64,000 bases of DNA, from NCBI RefSeq assembly GCF_000733765.1, contig NZ_JPOG01000001.1, forward strand, positions 620,001 through 684,000, written 5' to 3'. Under the pieces are notes generated by a model that ran no database searches, was not told where the DNA came from, and saw only the letters and a list, made by a program, of their open reading frames with translations. The first letter of the stretch is position 1; every line of letters begins with the position of its first letter. The translations under genes and the position numbers were made by a program. This stretch comes from Algiphilus aromaticivorans DG1253. Lineage in GTDB: Bacteria > Pseudomonadota > Gammaproteobacteria > Nevskiales > Nevskiaceae. Of the stretch, positions 8,830-52,144 are shown piece by piece.

Positions 8830-9864
8830 TCAGACGAAGCGGTCGAAATGTAGCTGTGCGGTTGGCACGCGCTTTTCCAGCATCAGTAGTCGCTGCAGCG
8901 CGTCCGTCATCGGCGGCGGGCCGCAGAAGTAGTAGTCGTATCCGCTGGCATCGCCTGCCGACTCCAGCCAGCCCTGCAGCACCTGGTGCACGAAGCCACG
9001 CTGGCCCTCCCAGGCCCCGGCATACGCTGGGTCGGAGATCGCGGTGACGCACTCGACCCTTGCGGCCAATGCCTCATCGCGCGCCAGCAGGGCCGGCGCG
9101 CAGAGGTCCGCCGGCGTACGGCCGCCGTAGAACAGCAGCAGCCGCCGTGACGCCAGCTGCGGTGCCCGCGCCGCAGCGGCCAGGATCGACAGCAGCGGCG
9201 AAATACCCGAGCCGCCGCCCACGCAGACGATGTCGCGGTCATTTTCCGGGCGCAGGTGCGCCAGGCCGTAGGGGCCATCCAGACCGATCGTGTCGCCGGG
9301 TTGCAAATCCTCAAAGAGGGCCATGCCGCCGCGACCGGCGCCGATCTGCTTGATCACGAACTGCCAGAGGCCATCGTCGTTCGGCAGGTTCGACATGGAG
9401 TAGGCGCGGGCACCGGCGACGCCTGGCAGGTCCAGCAAGGCGTACTGGCCGGGCAGGAAATCAGCAGGGTCCCCTGCGCGGAAGCTGAACTCGGCCATGT
9501 CGGCGGTCAGCCGCGTTCTCGACACCAGGGTCGCACGCCGCCGAGTGGGTCGCAGCGACGGCTGGCAGTCCGGCTTGAGCCGGACGCGCAGTGTGCAGTC
9601 ACCCCTGGGGACCGTTTGGCAGGCCAGCAGCCGCCCGCGCTCGCGGGCCCGTGGCGAGAGGCCCGGGGCCTGAGGCCACAATTCTTCGATGTCCCCGGAA
9701 ACCCTCTCGAACTGACACGAGCCACAGCCACCGGAGTTGCACTCGTAGGGGAAGGCGATGCCGGCACGCAGCGCGGCACGCAGCACCGTGTCGCCGGCCT
9801 CGCAAGGAAAGCTCTGCCCGCTGGCTTCGAGGGTAATCAGGTGCCTGGTCATTGTGCATCGCAT
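8830..9864 (-). CDS. Oxygenase-coupled ferredoxin reductase, plant-type [2Fe-2S] plus FAD/NAD domains
   Basis: A 344-residue electron-transfer protein. An N-terminal plant-type [2Fe-2S] domain has C42, C47, C50 and C82 in the pattern Cx4Cx2Cx31C. It is followed by a flavin domain (RAYSMSN) and an NAD(P) domain (GGGSGISPLLSIL, then CGPPPM near the end). This is the layout of class IB/III dioxygenase reductases such as NahAa. It would take electrons from NADH to the Rieske ferredoxin at 11474. It lies downstream of the aldehyde dehydrogenase on the same strand. The start is uncertain: an in-frame ATG at 9852 would remove four residues, and neither ATG has a strong ribosome site. A second reductase gene is at 15132. 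Confidence 0.9.
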   Translation of the reverse strand: MRCTMTRHLITLEASGQSFPCEAGDTVLRAALRAGIAFPYECNSGGCGSCQFERVSGDIEELWPQAPGLSPRARERGRLLACQTVPRGDCTLRVRLKPDCQPSLRPTRRRATLVSRTRLTADMAEFSFRAGDPADFLPGQYALLDLPGVAGARAYSMSNLPNDDGLWQFVIKQIGAGRGGMALFEDLQPGDTIGLDGPYGLAHLRPENDRDIVCVGGGSGISPLLSILAAAARAPQLASRRLLLFYGGRTPADLCAPALLARDEALAARVECVTAISDPAYAGAWEGQRGFVHQVLQGWLESAGDASGYDYYFCGPPPMTDALQRLLMLEKRVPTAQLHFDRFV

Positions 9865-15131: not shown

Positions 15132-16112
15132 GTGGAACTGGTGGTGCGACCCAGCGGGCGTGTCCTGGAAGTACAGGCGGGGGAGACCCTGCTGGACGCG
15201 CTATTGGGCAACCAGGTTCCTATCTCGCACAGCTGCAAGGACGGACGCTGCGGCGTTTGTCGCTGCCGGCTTCTGCGCGGCAACGTGGGGCCGGCGCGGC
15301 AGATGCGTCCGTCGCCGGTACTGGGGTCATCTTGCGTGCTGGCCTGCCAGAGCGTGCTGACCGAAGACTGTGTGATCGAGATTCCTGCGCCGGAAGATGT
15401 GGTAGTTCATCCGGCGCGCACGATGAAGGCCGAGGTGGTGGCGGTGGCGCCGCTGTGCCGCGACACCCTGCGGTTGAGGGTCCGGCCACAGTCGCCGCTG
15501 TCATTTTCCCCAGGACAGTACGTCGAGCTGGAATTTGAGCGCGGCCTTGCTCGTCCGTACTCGATGTGCGGACTGCCGGGCAACGAACTGGAGTTTCACG
15601 TGCGCCTTCATCCAGGTGGCCGTGCTTCCGCCCGCCTGTCCGAAGAGCTCAAGCCCGGGGACATGCTCAAGCTGCGTGGGCCTCTGGGGATCACGTTCCT
15701 GCGATCGCGCAACGAAGATCCCATCATCTGTGTGGGTGCCGGTACCGGCCTTGCGCCGACGCTGTCGATATTGCGCGGCATTGCCGCCGCAGGCATGACG
15801 AATCCGCTGCAGGTCTACCTGGGATTCACCTGCCGAGAGGATGTCTATGGGCAGGACGAACTGGCGGCGGCGCTGGAACAGTTGCCGGCGGCGCGTGCGC
15901 ACATCGTGGTCGCCGCCGGATCTATTGACCGTGGCATGAGGCGTGGCCTGCTGACAAGCGTGATCGCGGCGGATTTCCCCAGCCTTGCGGGCTGGCGCGC
16001 CTACGTTTTTGGATCCCCGCACGCGGTGGACGCCACGGTGCGTACGCTGCGGGAGAAGCAGATGGTGGAACAGAGCATCTACGCCGAACCCTTTCACATC
16101 ACCGGAAACTAG
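15132..16112 (+). CDS. nagAa: Ferredoxin reductase of the salicylate 5-hydroxylase/naphthalene dioxygenase system (NagAa type)
   Basis: A 326-residue reductase. The N-terminal plant-type [2Fe-2S] ligands are C35, C40, C43 and C72 (ISHSCKDGRCGVCRCR, then LACQSVLT). FAD binding is marked by RPYSMCGLPG and NAD binding by GAGTGLAPTLSILRG. Length and sequence are very close to NahAa/NagAa (about 328 residues). The start is GTG at 15132, with AGAGGAGA 6 bp upstream; the longer in-frame opening beginning at 14793 runs back through the divergent gene. It is the first gene of the operon carrying salicylate hydroxylase and gentisate enzymes, so it probably serves that oxygenase and perhaps also the naphthalene-type dioxygenase. 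Confidence 0.93.
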   Translation: MELVVRPSGRVLEVQAGETLLDALLGNQVPISHSCKDGRCGVCRCRLLRGNVGPARQMRPSPVLGSSCVLACQSVLTEDCVIEIPAPEDVVVHPARTMKAEVVAVAPLCRDTLRLRVRPQSPLSFSPGQYVELEFERGLARPYSMCGLPGNELEFHVRLHPGGRASARLSEELKPGDMLKLRGPLGITFLRSRNEDPIICVGAGTGLAPTLSILRGIAAAGMTNPLQVYLGFTCREDVYGQDELAAALEQLPAARAHIVVAAGSIDRGMRRGLLTSVIAADFPSLAGWRAYVFGSPHAVDATVRTLREKQMVEQSIYAEPFHITGN

Positions 16113-43299: not shown

Positions 43300-44061
43300 A
43301 TGAAAGAGCCGCTAGAGGGCGCGCAGCATAGCAAAAGCACCGATGCCTCCCTGAGTGGGCTGCGCGTGGTGCTGGTACGCACCCAGCACCCCGGCAATAT
43401 CGGCGCAACGGCCCGCGCCATGAAGACCATGGGCCTGTCCGACCTCGCCCTGGTCGCGCCGCAGGCCCCGCCCGACGAGCAAAGCTGGGCGATGGCCAGC
43501 GGTGCAGTCGATGTTCTCGACGCCATGCAGCGCTTCGACAACCTCGCCGAGGCGCTCGCCGACTGCTCGCAGGTGGTAGGTGTCTCCGCGCGCCGTCGCG
43601 GCATTTCACTGGAAGTCAGCGATGCACGCAGCTGGGCAGGGCAGTGGGCTGCTGCGCCCGCCGGTCGTACCGCCATCGTCTTCGGCGCCGAGCGCACCGG
43701 CCTGACCAACGCCGAGCTCGCGCTCTGTCAGCGGGCCGTACAGATTCCGGCCAACCCCGACTACGCCTCGCTGAATCTCGCTCAGGCCGTGCAGGTGCTG
43801 GCCTACGAATGCCGCATGGCCGCCCTGGGCGGTCTGCGCGGTACGCGCCCGCGCCGGCCGGCGGATCACGCCACCATGGAAGGCGTCTACGAGCATCTGG
43901 AACGGATGCTGGTCGCCACCGACTTCCTCGATCCCGACAAGCCGCGTCACCTGATGCGCCGGTTGCGTCGGCTGATTGCGCGGGCCGAGCCGGACAAGGT
44001 CGAGGCGAATATTCTGCGGGGGATGTTTTCCGCGGTGGAGAAGTATCGGGGAGATCGGTGA
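43300..44061 (+). CDS. trmJ: tRNA (cytidine/uridine-2'-O-)-methyltransferase TrmJ
   Basis: A 253-residue SPOUT methyltransferase that 2'-O-methylates nucleotide 32 in the anticodon loop of several tRNAs. The core carries VRTQHPGNIGATARAMKTMG, then IVFGAERTGLTNAEL and the knot segment PDYASLNLAQAVQVLAYE. The first 20 residues are non-conserved; an internal start is possible. It is divergent from suhB. In many relatives cysE and iscR follow; here a 0.8-kb non-coding stretch intervenes before cysE. Confidence 0.95.
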   Translation: MKEPLEGAQHSKSTDASLSGLRVVLVRTQHPGNIGATARAMKTMGLSDLALVAPQAPPDEQSWAMASGAVDVLDAMQRFDNLAEALADCSQVVGVSARRRGISLEVSDARSWAGQWAAAPAGRTAIVFGAERTGLTNAELALCQRAVQIPANPDYASLNLAQAVQVLAYECRMAALGGLRGTRPRRPADHATMEGVYEHLERMLVATDFLDPDKPRHLMRRLRRLIARAEPDKVEANILRGMFSAVEKYRGDR

Positions 44062-44685: not shown

Positions 44686-44895
44686 CGCGCATTGCGATGG
44701 CGCTTCAACGGCAGCGCGCCCGTTGCAGGCGCGGAACTCCCGGGCACGCTGCTTTCAAACTGGTATTTCCTCTTCGATCAGTCGCGAACCGCATACTTTG
44801 CGCGGAACTGCTTCCAGCTGGTCGCCGATCAAACGCGGCCGCGCTTGCCGCAGGCTCTACAATGGCAACACCTGCCACAGGCAATGAGGCCCCCC

Positions 44896-45705
44896 ATGTT
44901 CAGCACCATGCGCGAGGACATTGATTGCGTTTTCGAGCGCGATCCCGCAGCCCGCAACGTCTGGGAAGTGCTGACCTGTTATCCGGGGCTGAAGGCGCTG
45001 TGGGCGCACCGCGTCAGCCACTGGCTGTGGCGGAACGGCCTTCGCTGGCTGGCGCGGATGAACTCGCAGATCGCGCGATTCCTGACCGGTATCGAGATTC
45101 ATCCGGGTGCGGTCATCGGCCGGCGTTTCTTCATCGACCACGGCATGGGCGTGGTGATCGGCGAGACGGCCGAGATTGGCGACAACGTCACGCTCTACCA
45201 CCAGGTCACGCTCGGCGGCACGAGCTGGAACGGCGGCAAGCGGCATCCGACGCTGGAGGACAACGTCGTCGTCGGCGCCGGCGCCAAGGTGCTCGGGCCG
45301 ATCACCGTCGGTGCGGGCGTGCGCGTGGGCTCCAATTCGGTGGTGGTGCGCGACGTACCGGCGGCGTCTACCGTGGTCGGCATTCCGGCCCGCGTGGTGG
45401 CCAAGGCGCGTGAGCCCAGCGAGCGCGTAGCGGCCATGGCCAAGCGCATGGGCTTCGACGCCTATGGCCTGTCGCGCGACATGCCGGACCCGGTGGCTGA
45501 CGCGCTCAACGCCATACTGGATCACATGCATACCCTCGACGAGCGCGTTATCTCGCTCTGCGACACCCTGGCCGAGCGTGGCGAGGCGGTGCCACAGGAG
45601 GATATCGAGCCCATGGAGAAGCCCGACTTCTGCCGCGAGGAGGAAGAGCGCGAGGCCGAGCAGAAGGGCGACGACACGGAATCCGGCGGGCGCGGCGCAG
45701 TCTGA
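44896..45705 (+). CDS. cysE: Serine O-acetyltransferase CysE
   Basis: A 269-residue enzyme that acetylates L-serine with acetyl-CoA, the first step of cysteine synthesis. The N-terminal helical part ([21 protein letters not shown]) is followed by the left-handed beta-helix of hexapeptide repeats (about residues 70-165), with active-site segments [16 protein letters not shown] and [17 protein letters not shown]. The C-terminal tail is long and rich in glutamate. The ATG at 44896 is used; 44884 is in frame and adds four residues. It supplies cysteine, the sulfur donor for the desulfurases encoded next. Confidence 0.95.
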
Positions 45706-45864: not shown

Positions 45865-47004
45865 ATGCCCGTATATCTCGACCACAACGCCACGACGCCG
45901 CTGCATCCCGAGGCCCTTGAGGCCATGCAGCCGCATCTGACCAAGCCCTTCGGCAACCCTGCCAGCGTGCACCGCTTCGGCCGCGCCGCGCATGGCGCGG
46001 TGCAGCGCGCGCGCGTCGAGGTGGCAGAGCTGGTTGGCTGTCGCCAGGACGAGGTGATCTTCACAAGCGGCGGCACCGAATCCGACAATCTCGCAGTCAA
46101 GGGCGCGGCCGCCGCGCAGCCGGGCCGCACGGTGCTCTACGGGGCCACCGAGCACCCGGCCGTGCTGGAGGCCGCCGAGGCGCTGCGCGAGACCGGCACG
46201 CCGGTGGAGGTCATCCCGCACAGCGCTGATGGCCATCCGGACTGGCCGTGGCTGGAGCAGCGCCTGGGCCAGGGCGACGTCGGACTCGTCTGCCTGATGG
46301 CGGCCAACAACGAGACCGGCGTCATTCTCGACACCGCGCGCGCCGCCGAGCTGGCGCATGCCCATGATGCGCTTCTGCACGTCGACGTTGTGCAGGCAGC
46401 CGGCAAGATCGCGCTGGATTTCGCCGGCTCGGGCGCCGACATGATGGCGCTCTCCGCCCACAAGCTCTTCGGTCCGCGCGGCGTCGGGGCGCTCATCCTG
46501 CGCGCCGGCACCACCATCCACGCCCAGATGCACGGCGGCGGTCACGAAGGCGGGATGCGCAGCGGCACCCTCAACGCGCCGGGCATCGTCGGCTTCGGCG
46601 CGGCCTGCCGCGTGGCGGCGCGCGACATCGCCGAGCGCAACGTGCATTGCCGCGCGCTGCGCGATCGGCTCGAGGCAGGCCTGCAACAGCTGTCTGATGT
46701 CACCATCTTCGCGGCAGGCCAGGAGCGACTGTCCAACACCTGCCAGTTCGCCTTACACGGTTACGACGGCGAGGCCATGGTGATGGCCTTCGATCGCGAG
46801 GGTTTTGCGGTCTCCTCCGGCTCGGCCTGCCAGAGCGAGCACGGCGAGCCCAGCCACGTACTGCTCGGCATGGGGTTGCCGCGCGACATCGCCAAGGCGG
46901 CCGTGCGCGTCAGCGTCGGTCCGGACAACAGCGACGCCGACATCGACGCGCTGCTTTCTGCGCTGGCGCGCATCCGTGAGACGCCGATGGCGGCCATGGC
47001 CTAG
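45865..47004 (+). CDS. Cysteine desulfurase (NifS/IscS-like), first copy
   Basis: A 379-residue class V aminotransferase-fold enzyme that removes sulfur from cysteine for Fe-S cluster and thio-cofactor assembly. PLP binds K200 in MALSAHKLFGPRG; the persulfide-forming cysteine is C322 in SSGSACQSEHGEPSHVL. The N-terminal VYLDHNATTPLHP is typical. AGGAG lies just before the ATG. The extended cysteine loop places it in the class I (NifS/IscS) group. A paralogue starts 8 bp after its stop. Confidence 0.93.
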   Translation: MPVYLDHNATTPLHPEALEAMQPHLTKPFGNPASVHRFGRAAHGAVQRARVEVAELVGCRQDEVIFTSGGTESDNLAVKGAAAAQPGRTVLYGATEHPAVLEAAEALRETGTPVEVIPHSADGHPDWPWLEQRLGQGDVGLVCLMAANNETGVILDTARAAELAHAHDALLHVDVVQAAGKIALDFAGSGADMMALSAHKLFGPRGVGALILRAGTTIHAQMHGGGHEGGMRSGTLNAPGIVGFGAACRVAARDIAERNVHCRALRDRLEAGLQQLSDVTIFAAGQERLSNTCQFALHGYDGEAMVMAFDREGFAVSSGSACQSEHGEPSHVLLGMGLPRDIAKAAVRVSVGPDNSDADIDALLSALARIRETPMAAMA

Positions 47005-47012
47005 CGAGCATT

Positions 47013-48149
47013 GTGAGCATCTATCTGGACCATGCCGCCAGCACGCCGCTCGCCGATGAGGCGCGCGCGGCGATGCTGGCACAGCTCGACGGCGCGGGCG
47101 CCAACCCGGCTTCCGACCATGCGCCCGGCGCTGAAGCGGCCACTGCCGTCGAGGCGGCGCGCGCGCAGATCGCCGCCGCCATCGGTGCGCAGCCCGAGGA
47201 GATCGTTTTCACGTCGGGTGCGACTGAGGCCGACAACCTCGCCATCAAGGGCAGCCTCGAATTTCTCGGCGGCGGGCATCTGCTGACCACCCGCATCGAG
47301 CACAAGGCCGTGTTGGACGCCGCCGGCCGTTTGGCCGAACAGGGCGTGCCGATGAGCTATGTCGATCCCGCTGCCGACGGTCGTGTGCGCGTCGAGGATA
47401 TCGCCGCTGCACTGCGACCGGATACGGCGCTGGTTTCCGTGATGTGGGTGAACAACGAGACCGGCGCGATCAATCCCATTGCCGAGATCGCCGCGCTCTG
47501 CGCCGAGCGCGGTGTGCGCCTGCACGTCGACGCCGCGCAGGCGTTGGGCCGGCTGCCCATCGACATGGCCGAGGTTCCGGTGGCGTTGATGAGCCTGTCC
47601 GCGCACAAGTGCTACGGCCCCAAGGGGATCGGTGCGCTCTTCGTGCGCCGTCGGCCGCGGGCGCGGGTGGCGGCGCAGATGCACGGCGGCGGTCACGAGC
47701 AGGGCATGCGCTCGGGCACGCTTGCCACGCATCAGATCGCCGGCTTCGGCGCCGCCGCGGAGCTGGCCGCGGCCCGGTGCGAGGCGGACTACGCACACGC
47801 GACCGGGTTGGCCGAGCGGCTGCGCAGCGGATTGGAAGGGATGCCCGGCCTGCTGATGAATTCCGACCCCGACGCCTGCGTGCCGCATATCGTCAATATC
47901 GCTTTTGACGGCATCCACGGTGAGGCGCTGCGCGCGGCCACGGCCGAGCTGGCGGTGGCCTCGGGCTCGGCCTGCTCGGCCGCCGATGCCGAATCCAGCT
48001 ATGTGCTGCGCGCCTTGGGGCGCAGCGATCGCCAGGCGGGCGCGGCGTTGCGCATCTCCACCGGGCGCGACACCACCGCCGACAACATCGACCGCGCCGT
48101 CGCCGTCATCGGGGCGGCGGTGGAGCGGCTGCGCACCATCGCGGCATGA
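47013..48149 (+). CDS. Cysteine desulfurase (NifS/IscS-like), second copy
   Basis: A 378-residue paralogue of the preceding protein, starting with GTG at 47013. It keeps the PLP lysine (K199 in SLSAHKCYGPKGIG) and the catalytic cysteine (C321 in ASGSACSAADAESSYVL), so both copies look active. The N terminus is SIYLDHAASTPLADEA. Tandem desulfurases could act as a heterodimer or serve different acceptors; the sequence does not tell. It overlaps the scaffold-like gene by 4 bp. Confidence 0.92.
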   Translation: MSIYLDHAASTPLADEARAAMLAQLDGAGANPASDHAPGAEAATAVEAARAQIAAAIGAQPEEIVFTSGATEADNLAIKGSLEFLGGGHLLTTRIEHKAVLDAAGRLAEQGVPMSYVDPAADGRVRVEDIAAALRPDTALVSVMWVNNETGAINPIAEIAALCAERGVRLHVDAAQALGRLPIDMAEVPVALMSLSAHKCYGPKGIGALFVRRRPRARVAAQMHGGGHEQGMRSGTLATHQIAGFGAAAELAAARCEADYAHATGLAERLRSGLEGMPGLLMNSDPDACVPHIVNIAFDGIHGEALRAATAELAVASGSACSAADAESSYVLRALGRSDRQAGAALRISTGRDTTADNIDRAVAVIGAAVERLRTIAA

Positions 48150-48520
48150 AGGCCATCGGCCCGCAGGCTTATTCGGCCACCGTCTGGCTGCGATTCACCG
48201 CGCCGCAGCGCGCGGGGCATCCGCCTGAGGCTGTCAGCGGCTGTGCCGAGTCGTCGGCTCATCAGTTGCGCGTCTGCTTTCATCGCAGCGATAGCGGCTA
48301 CCGTTTCACGGCCATAGGCTGCCCGACCACCATCGCGGCGGCCGACTACTGCGCCGAGCAGCTCGACGCGGGTCGCACGCCGCAGGCAGCCGAGATGATG
48401 GACGGCCTTGAAATTCCGGAGGATCGCCGTCACTGTGTGTTGTTGTGCGAAGACGCGATGGCCGCGCTCGCAGCGCGCCTCGCACAGGCCCTTTCAGGAC
48501 AGGATCGACAGGCATCATGA
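48146..48520 (+). CDS. Divergent IscU/NifU-like Fe-S scaffold protein
   Basis: A 124-residue protein. Two segments match the IscU/NifU-N fold: TAIGCPTTIAAADYCAEQL (C59, in place of the GCGS motif) and DRRHCVLLCEDAMAAL (C97, in place of the HCS motif). C33 may take the part of the first IscU ligand. The LPPVK chaperone-binding motif of IscU is not present; LEIPEDRRHC occupies its place. It overlaps both neighbours by 4 bp (ATGA), so it is produced with the desulfurase and the IscA protein. A scaffold or sulfur-relay role is inferred. Confidence 0.72.
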   Translation: MKAIGPQAYSATVWLRFTAPQRAGHPPEAVSGCAESSAHQLRVCFHRSDSGYRFTAIGCPTTIAAADYCAEQLDAGRTPQAAEMMDGLEIPEDRRHCVLLCEDAMAALAARLAQALSGQDRQAS

Positions 48521-48861
48521 GCATTACTCTTAGCGAAGCCGCAGCCGACCGCATCCGTCGCCAGCTCGCCGAGCGCGGGCAGGGCATCGGGCTGCGTGTG
48601 GGTGTCACCACCACCGGCTGCTCGGGCAACGCCTATAAGCTCGACTATGCCGACGCGGTTGGCGAGGACGAAGTCGCCTTCGAGCAGCACGGCGCCACGG
48701 TCGTCGTCGCCAAGCGCGATCTGCCCATGCTCGACGGCCTGAACGTGGACTTCCGTCGCGAAGGACTGAACGAGCTCTACCGCTTCGACAACCCCAACGC
48801 CACCGGCCTCTGCGGCTGCGGCGAGAGCTTCCACCTCGCCGAGGAAGAAGCCGCTTCCTGA
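48517..48861 (+). CDS. iscA: A-type Fe-S carrier IscA
   Basis: A 114-residue HesB/IscA-family protein that passes Fe-S clusters to target enzymes. The three conserved cysteines are C35 in TTTGCSGNAYKLDYAD, and C99 and C101 in GLCGCGESF, at the same positions as in E. coli IscA. It starts in a 4-bp overlap with the scaffold-like gene. hscB, hscA and fdx, which follow in standard isc operons, are absent here. Confidence 0.94.
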   Translation: MSITLSEAAADRIRRQLAERGQGIGLRVGVTTTGCSGNAYKLDYADAVGEDEVAFEQHGATVVVAKRDLPMLDGLNVDFRREGLNELYRFDNPNATGLCGCGESFHLAEEEAAS

Positions 48862-48907: not shown

Positions 48908-51586
48908 ATGATCTCTCCGAAATCCGTGATCGCGGCGGCCGTTCTGCTGCTCGCCGCCTGCAGCAGTTCCGACGATGCGCCCCGAGGCGAAGCCCGGCTC
49001 AGCCTGAACACCGCCAGCACCGCCTTCGGGCGGGTCGTCTCCGAGCCCGCCGGCATTGACTGCCCTGACCGCTGCGCGGCGAGCTTTCCGGCGGGCGAGG
49101 AAGTCGTGCTGCGTGCCGAAGACAGCGACACGGCCGTCTTCGAGCGCTGGGGCGGGGACTGCGGCGAAGCGCGCGAATGTCCTGTGCGCCTCGATGAGGG
49201 GCGTGCGTTGCCGGTGCATTTCGCCGCTGCGCGGCGTCTGTCGCGCGGGCACTGGCGCGGCGGTGATACGCATGTGCACAGCGATCATTCCAGCGACGGC
49301 AGCCTGCCGCGCCAGATCAACGAAGGCGCTCGGGGCAATGTCTCGGTAGGCGATCAGATCACTTTCGCCGAGCGGACCGGTACCGATTTCCTGTCGATCA
49401 CCGACCACCGCACCTTCGATCAGCACTACCACCCCGAGTGGTTCTCTGAGGAGGTTCTGCTGCTTCGCGGGGAAGAGGCCAACGGCCGGCCGCACGCGAT
49501 CGTGCAGGGTGGCGTGGAGCGTGTGCTGCAGCAGGCCAGCAACAACGTGCGCGCGCTGCAGCAGTCGATCTGGGACGCCCGTGCCCAGGGCGCGGTCTGG
49601 ATCACTGCCCACCCCGACCGCGATGCCACCGAGGACGATGGCACGCCGCTCGATGTCGCGGCGCCGCTGGGGGTTGGTGCGGTCGAGATCTGGAACATCG
49701 CGCGTGACGCCGACGCCAATATCGCCTACGCCGAGACCATGTGGAATCGCGGCTACCGCTTCGGCGTCGTGGCGGCCTCGGACAACCATTTTCGCGAGCT
49801 GCGCCTCATCTCCGGGCCGGGCACGCCGCGGACCAGCCTGCGCATGCGCGAGCTGCGCGAGGTCGAGGTGCTGTCGGCGCTTGCGGCCGGGCACAGCCGG
49901 CTGTCGGCCAGCGCCGTCGGCCCGACGCTGAGCATGCAGGCCGCGGTCGGCGAGGGAGAGACCGCGCAGCGCTACCAGGCCGGCGACGAGATCTTCGTGC
50001 CCGCCGGCACGAGCGTGGCGCTGGAACTGGTCACCGAGCGTGCGCTGGGCACTCGGCTGCGTGTCTTTCGCAACCCGGGTCGTGACGCCGGCCCGCTCGC
50101 GACCTTCACGCCCACCGCATTGATGGGCGAAGAGCGCTTCACGTTGGAACTCGAAGCCGAGGACGCAGCCGCCTGGTATCGCGCTGAGCTGCGTGGTCCC
50201 GGCAAACCGGATTCGCCGCTGTTCACGGTCGAGAATCTCGTCGACGGCCTGGCCGAGGGCGATCTGCTGCCCATCCTCGAAACGGTCGGAGAGTTGCCCG
50301 GCCAGCTGCGTGCGGCCACGCCGGCGCTCTTCGTCTCGGAACAGCCGCCACAACCCGACACCGTCGTGCCGTTGCCGGCCGATTCCGGGGGTGATGACGG
50401 CGCCCGGTTGGCCATCGGCTCGCGCGCGGCCTGGAGCGGCTTTCCGGATGTTGCGGCAGTCGGCGAGGTGACGCATATCGTCGCCGAAGCGCGCGTCGAC
50501 GGCCGCGCCGGCGTGTACTACCGCCGCGACGAGGCCGGAGAATTCAGCAGGCTGCGTGATCTGGCGCCCGACTCGGCGTCCGCGCGCCTGCCACGCGTGG
50601 CCGCGCGAGGCGATACGGTCTGGGTGGTCTGGCAGGATGAGCGCGCCGGCGAAATCCCGCGCCAGCCCGCCATCATGGCGCGCGCCAGCTTGGATGGCGG
50701 CCGCAGCTGGGAGCCTGAGATCATAGTGCGCGCCGTCGACGGTCGCGCCGAGCATCCCGATATTTCCTTCGACCGGCAAGGGCATCCCGTCATCGTCTGG
50801 CAGGAGATCGGCAGCGGCCGCGCCTTCGATGTCTGGGCGCAGGTGTTGGGCCGCGACGCCGAGCCCGTCAACCTTTCGGGGGCGGACAAGGAGACGGCGG
50901 CGGCGAATGCATTCGATACGCGCTCTGCGCGTTGGCCGGCTTCGCTCTATCCGGCGGTTTCGGTGGCCGATGACGGCAGCATCGCGGTGGTCTGGCAGGA
51001 CAACCGCAGCGACCCGGATCCGCTGTTCACCGGCTCCCTTGGCAATGCCGAGGGCACGAGTCCCGACGACTGGGCCATCTTCAGCGCCCTGCGTGGCCCC
51101 GGCAGTGAGCAGTGGCTCCGCGGCCCGATTGCTGCAGTCGCTCAGGCAGCGCAACGCTTCCCCACCGTGGTGCACGGCAACGCTGGCGTGCTGCATCTGG
51201 CCTGGGAGCGCCAGGCGCTGTCGGACTCGGGCACGACGGCGTACGTGCAGGCCACGCGCCTGGCGCCGGGAGCCGATGACTGGCAGTCCGCGCAGGATGT
51301 CGCCGGCAGCGAGGCCTTCAGCGCTCAGCGCCCGGCGCTGGGGCTCGGTGCGGACGGCGCGCCGATGCTGACCTGGATGGACGCTGGCGCCGAGGACTGG
51401 CGCTGGCGCATCGGCCGCGCCGATTTCGACGGCGCGCGTTGGGCGGCCGTGCGTGCTATCGATGCGCGCGGCAACAACACTTGGCCGGCGCTGTCCGACG
51501 GACAACTGGTCTTTGCCGGCACGCGCAACGCGCGGCGCCTGCAGCGCGATGCCACGCAACAGATATTCGTGCGCGGCGGCGAATAG
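48908..51586 (+). CDS. Large lipoprotein with PHP metallohydrolase domain and beta-propeller-like region
   Basis: An 892-residue predicted lipoprotein: signal peptide with lipobox LAAC (C18). Residues about 30-110 resemble a small cysteine-containing repeat domain (GRVVSEPAGIDCPDRC). Residues 117-360 form a PHP metallohydrolase of the CehA/McbA type: RGGDTHVHSDHSSDG with H122 and H124, FLSITDHRTFDQHYH, TAHPDR and ASDNHF supply metal ligands. Residues about 500-880 contain repeated blocks such as VWVVWQDERAGEIP, VIVWQEIGSG and IAVVWQDNRSD, the pattern of sialidase-like beta-propellers. It would sit in the cell envelope facing the periplasm or surface. Neither substrate nor pathway can be named, and its neighbours (iscA and ndk) do not explain it. 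Confidence 0.78.
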   Translation: MISPKSVIAAAVLLLAACSSSDDAPRGEARLSLNTASTAFGRVVSEPAGIDCPDRCAASFPAGEEVVLRAEDSDTAVFERWGGDCGEARECPVRLDEGRALPVHFAAARRLSRGHWRGGDTHVHSDHSSDGSLPRQINEGARGNVSVGDQITFAERTGTDFLSITDHRTFDQHYHPEWFSEEVLLLRGEEANGRPHAIVQGGVERVLQQASNNVRALQQSIWDARAQGAVWITAHPDRDATEDDGTPLDVAAPLGVGAVEIWNIARDADANIAYAETMWNRGYRFGVVAASDNHFRELRLISGPGTPRTSLRMRELREVEVLSALAAGHSRLSASAVGPTLSMQAAVGEGETAQRYQAGDEIFVPAGTSVALELVTERALGTRLRVFRNPGRDAGPLATFTPTALMGEERFTLELEAEDAAAWYRAELRGPGKPDSPLFTVENLVDGLAEGDLLPILETVGELPGQLRAATPALFVSEQPPQPDTVVPLPADSGGDDGARLAIGSRAAWSGFPDVAAVGEVTHIVAEARVDGRAGVYYRRDEAGEFSRLRDLAPDSASARLPRVAARGDTVWVVWQDERAGEIPRQPAIMARASLDGGRSWEPEIIVRAVDGRAEHPDISFDRQGHPVIVWQEIGSGRAFDVWAQVLGRDAEPVNLSGADKETAAANAFDTRSARWPASLYPAVSVADDGSIAVVWQDNRSDPDPLFTGSLGNAEGTSPDDWAIFSALRGPGSEQWLRGPIAAVAQAAQRFPTVVHGNAGVLHLAWERQALSDSGTTAYVQATRLAPGADDWQSAQDVAGSEAFSAQRPALGLGADGAPMLTWMDAGAEDWRWRIGRADFDGARWAAVRAIDARGNNTWPALSDGQLVFAGTRNARRLQRDATQQIFVRGGE

Positions 51587-51712: not shown

Positions 51713-52144
51713 ATGGCGGTTGAACGCACCCTTTCCATCATCAAGCCCGACGCAGTGGCAGCCAATGCCATCGGCGACATCTACAGCCGCTTCGAGAAGG
51801 CCGGTCTGAAGGTCGTCGCAGCCCGCATGCTGCACCTGACGCGCGGCGAAGCCGAGGGCTTCTATGCGGTGCACCGCGAGCGCCCCTTCTTCACCGATCT
51901 GGTCAACTTCATGGTCACGGGTCCGGTGATGGTGCAGGTCCTGGAAGGCGACGACGCCATCGCGCGCCATCGCGACATCATGGGCGCGACCAACCCAAAG
52001 GAAGCCGCGCCGGGAACGATCCGTGCGGACTTCGCCACCTCCATCGACGAGAACGCCGTGCACGGCTCCGATAGCGCCGAGAACGCCGCGACCGAGATCG
52101 CCTACTTCTTCCGCGCCACGGAAGTCGTGCCGCGCACGCGCTAG
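51713..52144 (+). CDS. ndk: Nucleoside diphosphate kinase
   Basis: A 143-residue enzyme that moves the gamma phosphate between nucleoside triphosphates and diphosphates. [11 protein letters not shown] is the N-terminal motif, and the phosphorylated histidine is in [10 protein letters not shown]. Length is normal. It begins the conserved run ndk-rlmN-pilF-rodZ-ispG-hisS; rlmN starts 7 bp after its stop. Confidence 0.97.

Follow-up and report, generated by a model that had tools for sequence, protein, structure and literature searches.

In Escherichia coli, the iscRSUA genes of the iron-sulfur (Fe-S) cluster (ISC) system are adjoined by trmJ and suhB, trmJ preceding iscR. According to the accessible part of the report on the E. 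coli IscS-IscU complex, Y3, Y11 and K103 are among the contacts of IscU with the cysteine desulfurase IscS, and IscS without residues 376-404 fails to bind IscU (PMC2854127). The accessible text on mouse ISCU gives C35, D37, C61 and H103, which correspond to C37, D39, C63 and H105 of E. coli IscU, as iron ligands and C104, corresponding to C106, as the persulfide receptor (PMC8924461). E. coli IscU and TusA are described as competitors for IscS that influence its activity in the available portion of a further source (PMC11302665). Here we describe an eroded isc operon in a stretch of 64,000 nucleotides of Algiphilus aromaticivorans DG1253 (Nevskiales, Nevskiaceae; contig NZ_JPOG01000001.1, positions 620,001 to 684,000 of the forward strand), the whole of which is referred to as the window. 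Its IscU-derived protein, termed U, has retained the IscU fold and lost C37, D39 and the LPPVK motif; it is locked to IscS by gene overlap or, in relatives, by fusion, the IscS has lost its C-terminal tail, and U is under selection. We hold with moderate confidence that the operon eroded after the sulfur mobilization (SUF) system became the cluster maker, and that U is now a dedicated partner of IscS and no longer an Fe-S scaffold. The operon consists of four genes:

45865 to 47004, + strand: CD1, the upstream cysteine desulfurase of NifS/IscS type, 379 residues, best NCBIfam match FeS_nifS
47013 to 48149, + strand: CD2, the IscS orthologue, 378 residues, GTG start, best PDB match E. coli IscS 1p3w
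48146 to 48520, + strand: U, the IscU-derived protein, identified by alignments, an AlphaFold model and Foldseek/VIA
48517 to 48861, + strand: an IscA-type carrier with C35, C99 and C101 (PF01521, 69.1 bits)

CD1 and CD2 are separated by an 8-base gap, and a 4-base ATGA overlap was found at the CD2/U junction and again at the U/IscA junction. Using E. coli IscR, HscB, HscA and IscX as tblastn queries, no match was obtained in the window at E 1e-3, and E. coli Fdx matched ferredoxin-like stretches at 15150-15386 (+) and 9616-9819 (-), both far from the operon. An Rfam scan of the window returned nothing but one tRNA. The IscA of the window has the three conserved cysteines and the family profile of an A-type carrier; the cut-off of the general model TIGR00049 was passed, and the score for the IscA equivalog was 131.3 bits, below its cut-off of 150.6. 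The original prediction had described much of this inventory, and its claims of two paralogous desulfurases with catalytic residues (the pyridoxal phosphate (PLP) lysine, active-site histidine and persulfide cysteine are all present in both), an IscU-like protein without LPPVK, an IscA, 4-bp overlaps joining the last three genes, and the absence of iscR, hscBA and fdx from the operon were borne out.

Window U matched PF01592 with 21.4 bits, just under the cut-off of 22; among the aligned U members, 23/23 matched in Pfam at E 0.01. A profile built from 23 family members matched E. coli IscU at 6e-29 and Bacillus subtilis SufU at about 1e-5. The AlphaFold model of U had a mean predicted local distance difference test score (pLDDT) of 92.4 and a predicted template modelling score (pTM) of 0.85, and its first Foldseek match was 3lvl_A, the IscU chain of the E. 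coli IscS-IscU complex. VIA-align superposed the model on this chain with Z 17.1 and a root-mean-square deviation of 1.6 over 110 residues, while SufU chains reached Z 12.0 at most. As modelled, U has the IscU/NifU_N fold. SufU and NifU were rejected as identities of U, profile and fold both being nearer to IscU.

Residues of U were numbered as in E. coli IscU and compared in the 79 genomes of the order that have a U homologue, 56 of which belong to the family of the window. C37 was kept in 0/79 and D39 in 3/79. The loss of C37 and D39 together with retention of C63, H105 and C106 was seen in 52/79, the window included; all five residues were lost in 11/79, all of family f6, and the remaining 16 were intermediate. 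Within the family of the window, C37 and D39 were lost in 56/56, with C63 kept in 54/56, H105 in 53/56 and C106 in 55/56. The equivalents of C63, H105 and C106 in window U are C59, H96 and C97, respectively, and the C37 column is occupied by H39; the set C33, C59 and C97 named in the original prediction is consequently not that of IscU, since C33 is not the ligand C37. The chaperone motif LPPVK is replaced mostly by I-P-E/D-D-R/K, in the window by IPEDR. Among the contact positions, the family has Y3 in 56/56, F at position 11 in 56/56 and K/R103 in 56/56, and the other IscS contacts (38, 40, 42, 59-61 and 64) have drifted. With the ligands C37 and D39 gone and positions 3, 11 and 103 kept, part of the iron site has been lost and some of the docking face retained. 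Neither the five-ligand set nor the LPPVK of an IscU scaffold is present, and because C37 and D39 are absent, cluster binding by U in the manner of IscU appears unlikely from the alignments.

The origin of the operon was traced from its chromosomal address. In the locus L066, which lies outside the order, an intact operon occupies the same address in the order trmJ-iscR-CD1-iscS-iscU-iscA-hscB-hscA-fdx-iscX-ndk-rlmN-pilF. In the window, suhB, trmJ and cysE lie to the left, and ndk and rlmN lie to the right beyond an open reading frame (ORF) of 892 codons; an ORF near ndk and rlmN is presumably pilF, judged from its position. The flanking genes that define the address are:

43300 to 44061, + strand: trmJ, left flank (SpoU_methylase match)
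44791 to 45705, + strand: serine acetyltransferase of the hexapeptide family, which we take to be cysE, left flank, the same neighbour being found in relatives
51713 to 52144, + strand: ndk, right flank (NDK, 194.6 bits), lying 3' of the isc genes in relatives

Relatives were collected with an alignment query, which yielded 77 loci, of which 37 were used as Nevskiales-type (L113-L146, L148, L150 and L170); a search of genome contigs with the single sequence of window U gave no relative, and the search of plasmids gave none. Neighbours were viewed for 17 of the 40 remaining loci, most of which showed ordinary IscU or SufU neighbourhoods; L147 was Nevskiales-like under another label. The named loci and the genomes with G numbers overlap partly in organisms, and their counts are kept separate. 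The relatives with names are Solimonas, Nevskia, Hydrocarboniphaga, Sinimarinibacterium, Stagnimonas and Stenotrophobium. The order CD1-S-U-A was found in 35/37 named loci and is therefore not a product of chance; the two exceptions are L114, a contig of 3.6 kb, and L148, in which CD1 and IscA were not found. Four further families of the order (f2, f3, f4 and f6) include genomes with iscR still at the address. The address and the S-U-A order are those of an isc operon, from which the chaperones HscB/HscA and Fdx are missing. Since L066 has an intact operon with CD1 at the same address, CD1 is very likely older than the losses, and the operon of the window is the remnant of a complete ISC operon.

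Some features of these loci were noted in passing. The 892-codon ORF (48908-51586, +) that separates iscA from ndk is lipoprotein-like by eye and contains a GDTHVHSDHS stretch; it had no Pfam match at E 1e-5. In most of the relatives' loci compared, the distance from iscA to the start of ndk is about 0.4 kb or less, unlike in the window. In G005 (L049, 7544-10839) the locus lies elsewhere; IscS and U are separated there by an ORF that by eye resembles NAD(P) transhydrogenase, and IscA is followed by an ORF that by eye is thyA-like. A gap of about the same length occurs in G016 (L050).

Genome-wide searches covered HscB, frataxin and SUF. HscB was found in 0/85 genomes of the order and in 8/117 overall, and frataxin in 0/85 and 2/117, respectively. 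SUF (PF01458) was found in 83/85 genomes of the order, the two misses being the drafts G021 and G037, and in just 1/8 of the HscB-bearing genomes. The search of the window's own genome for suf and isc genes, as suggested by the original prediction, succeeded for SUF and gave no NifU_N match at E 1e-3: SufB, SufC, SufD and SufS are encoded in one cluster 3' of an IscR-like regulator (24% identity), with SufE elsewhere. Between sufB and sufC lies an ORF of 136 residues (L041, 5141-5551), which we assume to be GxxExxY-like. Salinisphaera sp. LB1 is tabulated under SufBD only in the accessible part of a published survey (PMC8896826).

The two desulfurases were compared with E. coli IscS. CD2 matched 1p3w at E 4.5e-110; the best PDB match of CD1 was also E. 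coli IscS, at 8e-80, and its FeS_nifS score of 384.7 bits lies below the NCBIfam cut-off of 530.75. By these matches CD2 is assigned as IscS and CD1 as a more distant paralogue. The equivalents of E. coli K206, H104 and C328 are kept in both, and from the alignment both look active. Aligned with E. coli IscS, CD2 ends at the position of residue 385, and the E. coli protein extends to 404. When tails and active sites were compared in closed frames of more than 250 residues, a W-x-x-H tail near residue 404 ended every intact IscS examined and was seen in no IscS of the order. The tandem desulfurase was tried as an unusual feature and dropped, as the CD1 paralogue also adjoins intact iscS in L066 and L086 and occurs in the Rickettsiales record L153; an isc operon with two desulfurases in tandem is nothing out of the ordinary.

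In 23/79 genomes IscS and U are read in one frame with no stop between them; 22 of these genomes are among the 56 of the window's family and one (G058) is in another family. For these calls frames and stops were checked, and long open frames in the search table alone were not counted; G026 (no IscS in reach), G055 (IscS frame interrupted), G028 and G061 (partial IscS) were counted as not fused. In G055 (L120 / L023) a TAG stands in the IscS frame near the codon of the PLP lysine, which in a draft assembly may be error or decay. The fused proteins have about 510-545 residues, and Aminotran_5 and NifU_N were both matched in 14/14 fusions scanned. Cultured strains with the fusion are Solimonas aquatica (L123), Stenotrophobium rhamnosiphilum (L129), Stagnimonas aquatica (L142, 7810-9360, 517 residues) and Sinimarinibacterium sp. 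(L141); outside the order it was found in G384, stop-free over the whole match, and in L159, a record titled Comamonas. An AlphaFold model of the fusion had a mean pLDDT of 84.5 and a pTM of 0.85, and among the PDB matches listed all cover the desulfurase half. On the IscS tree of 79 rows (78 genomes, 23 of them fused, and E. coli; G055, G061, G036, G066 and G083 were left out), the fused state required 11 changes, 9 of them forced by well-supported branches, compared with a mean of 20.1 for shuffled labels; gain and loss of the fusion are not separable on the tree. IscS-IscU, NifS-NifU and SufS-SufU fusions are undescribed in the open-access texts searched, a search that left most subscription papers uncovered. 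As far as the open-access texts searched show, the ligand-stripped IscU and the recurrent natural IscS-IscU fusion are both undescribed.

Selection was estimated from the ratio of nonsynonymous to synonymous substitution rates (dN/dS) in 24 pairs, which share genomes and are not independent. The median for U was 0.24 (0.12-0.52; 22/24 pairs), and the medians were 0.11 for IscS (24/24 pairs) and 0.056 for IscA (23/24). Pairs with dS at or below 0.05 were excluded from the medians, namely G074-G079 (0.09) and G064-G070 (1.41, dS 0.01) for U and G004-G015 (0.31) for IscA. U is under purifying selection that is weaker than that on the neighbouring genes. A U homologue was found in 56/58 genomes of the family; loss of U in the other two was considered and rejected, as their contigs end inside CD2.

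If the operon is such a remnant with U as partner of IscS, U would dock on IscS near the site of IscU. In the window's family it could accept persulfide on C106, perhaps through C63, and could tune or steer the output of the desulfurase to sulfur pathways other than cluster assembly; a tethered U without the iron site could route sulfur to tRNA, molybdenum cofactor or other uses. In the sister family that has lost all five residues, a binding or tuning role alone would be left. IscA may carry clusters at a step downstream of SUF, and CD1 may be an inherited second desulfurase.

Several observations weigh against this reading. CD2 lacks residues 386-404, and since E. coli IscS without 376-404 does not bind IscU, docking of U on CD2 is unsure; U may bind IscS in another way, or tethering may compensate for the shortened tail. 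CD2 also stands on a long branch (0.84) of the IscS tree, beside other families, and window U is unusually diverged, the IscU model having no match in G000. The further cysteines of window U (C33, C44, C69 and C101) could hold a metal in some other way. The sister family f6 has lost C63 in 14/15 and C106 in 14/15 and has not kept Y3 and K103, so that neither the relay nor the docking pattern is common to the whole order. G090 and G114 have an IscU with all five residues and yet no HscB match, with an HscA match beside the intact IscU in G090; intact IscU is therefore not dependent on HscB everywhere. Finally, U has a dN/dS roughly double the value for CD2, and this fits relaxed constraint too.

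The last point belongs to an alternative that we judge unlikely, namely that U is vestigial and in the course of being lost, held only by overlap or fusion with the desulfurase gene. Its dN/dS above those of CD2 and IscA and the stepwise loss of motif residues agree with this, as do two end states at the same address: U was not found beside CD1, IscS and IscA in G098, and just CD1 and IscA remain in G105, where both IscS and IscU are absent. However, every family genome with a contig covering the position has the homologue, the ratio stays within 0.12-0.52 in 22/24 pairs, H105 and C106 are nearly invariant in the family, and the fusion is repeated.

We regard it as rather improbable that U still works as an Fe-S scaffold through other ligands, such as C63 and C106 contributed by two protomers, or the additional cysteines present in window U. 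The joint retention of C63, H105 and C106 in 52/79, the IscU fold and the position of IscA next in the operon would suit such a function, but C37 and D39 are gone from 56/56 and no column of the family alignment that is invariant or nearly so offers a cysteine in their place, LPPVK is lost, hscBA and fdx have left the operon, searches of the order gave neither HscB nor frataxin, and SUF occurs in 83/85 of its genomes. It is very improbable that the four genes are a specialised system for sulfur relay in their own right, with no relation to ISC, for although two desulfurases and a possible persulfide acceptor share one operon, the address, gene order and orthologues are those of isc operons and the match of the family profile is 6e-29 for E. 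coli IscU and 1e-5 for SufU. The original prediction had seen a layout that was neither isc, suf nor nif; the same flanks and upstream desulfurase surround an intact isc operon in L066, and the locus is an eroded isc. Its proposal of a specialised Fe-S or sulfur-relay system is disfavoured by synteny as far as separation from ISC is concerned, and the genes may yet have a role in sulfur relay.

Reduced loci were also found beyond the order. Ten hand-picked genomes with a stripped IscU or a reduced locus have no HscB (G384, G121, G148, G221, G357, G098, G342, G088, G108 and G110), and seven hand-picked genomes with good IscS-IscU matches all have it (G233, G344, G262, G190, G289, G222 and G157; IscU residues were read in the first three). 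Two Castellaniella loci (L166 and L183) have the order iscR-iscS-U-iscA and a U without C37 and D39 (by eye), with no hscBA within the fetched stretch, and are possibly an independent case. On the IscS tree, G088, G108 and G110 group with the order, apart from the intact G094 and G085, and one early loss, transfer or long-branch error could each account for this grouping. Independent repeats of IscU stripping outside the order are possible, and the IscS tree gives no demonstration of them.

With U as a dedicated partner of IscS, a more general proposal can be made, which we put forward tentatively and with more doubt than belief: an IscU minus its iron site would be a pseudo-scaffold, a dedicated and often tethered subunit of IscS that sets the rate and the recipient of sulfur in SUF-dependent bacteria. 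Where all five active-site residues are lost, its role would be purely allosteric or steric. This path may be recurrent after takeover by SUF, as stripped IscU without HscB occurs in other gammaproteobacteria and in Castellaniella.

The loci grade naturally from an intact ISC operon into a remnant, and along this series the window's family has lost part of the iron site and kept IscS-contact positions. Two tasks of IscU, to hold iron and to act on IscS, would become separable in such a series. The one-chain IscS-U proteins set the ratio of the partners at 1:1 and are ready objects for structural and persulfide-transfer studies. For annotation, window U falls just under the family cut-off and its relatives over it, and passing the cut-off need not imply a working ISC pathway.

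Compared with the ISC operon of E. coli and other gammaproteobacteria (IscRSUA-HscBA-Fdx-IscX), the locus has the same address, S-U-A order, IscU fold and orthologues of IscS and IscA. In contrast, iscR, hscBA, fdx and iscX are missing from the operon of the window, U has no C37, D39 or LPPVK, CD2 has no C-terminal extension, and U is fused with IscS in 23/79 genomes of the order. As in the IscS-IscU complex 3lvl, both partners are encoded, and in the family the residues at positions 3, 11 and 103 are conserved in character; unlike there, the partner genes overlap or are fused, two iron ligands are gone and the docking tail of IscS is shortened. The SufS-SufU pair likewise includes a protein of IscU fold, SufU being by its PDB molecule name a zinc-dependent sulfurtransferase and not a scaffold, whereas U is nearer to IscU in profile and fold. 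The zinc ligands of SufU include the equivalents of C37 and D39. In Mycobacterium tuberculosis, according to the accessible part of the source, ISC is likewise reduced alongside a complete SUF system (PMC10848736), but iscS stands alone there, while here it is accompanied by a second desulfurase, IscA and an IscU stripped of ligands. Natural desulfurase-rhodanese fusions, as described in the available text, also join a cysteine desulfurase to a sulfur-accepting partner (PMC8931425); the partner here, in contrast, is an IscU domain minus two iron ligands.

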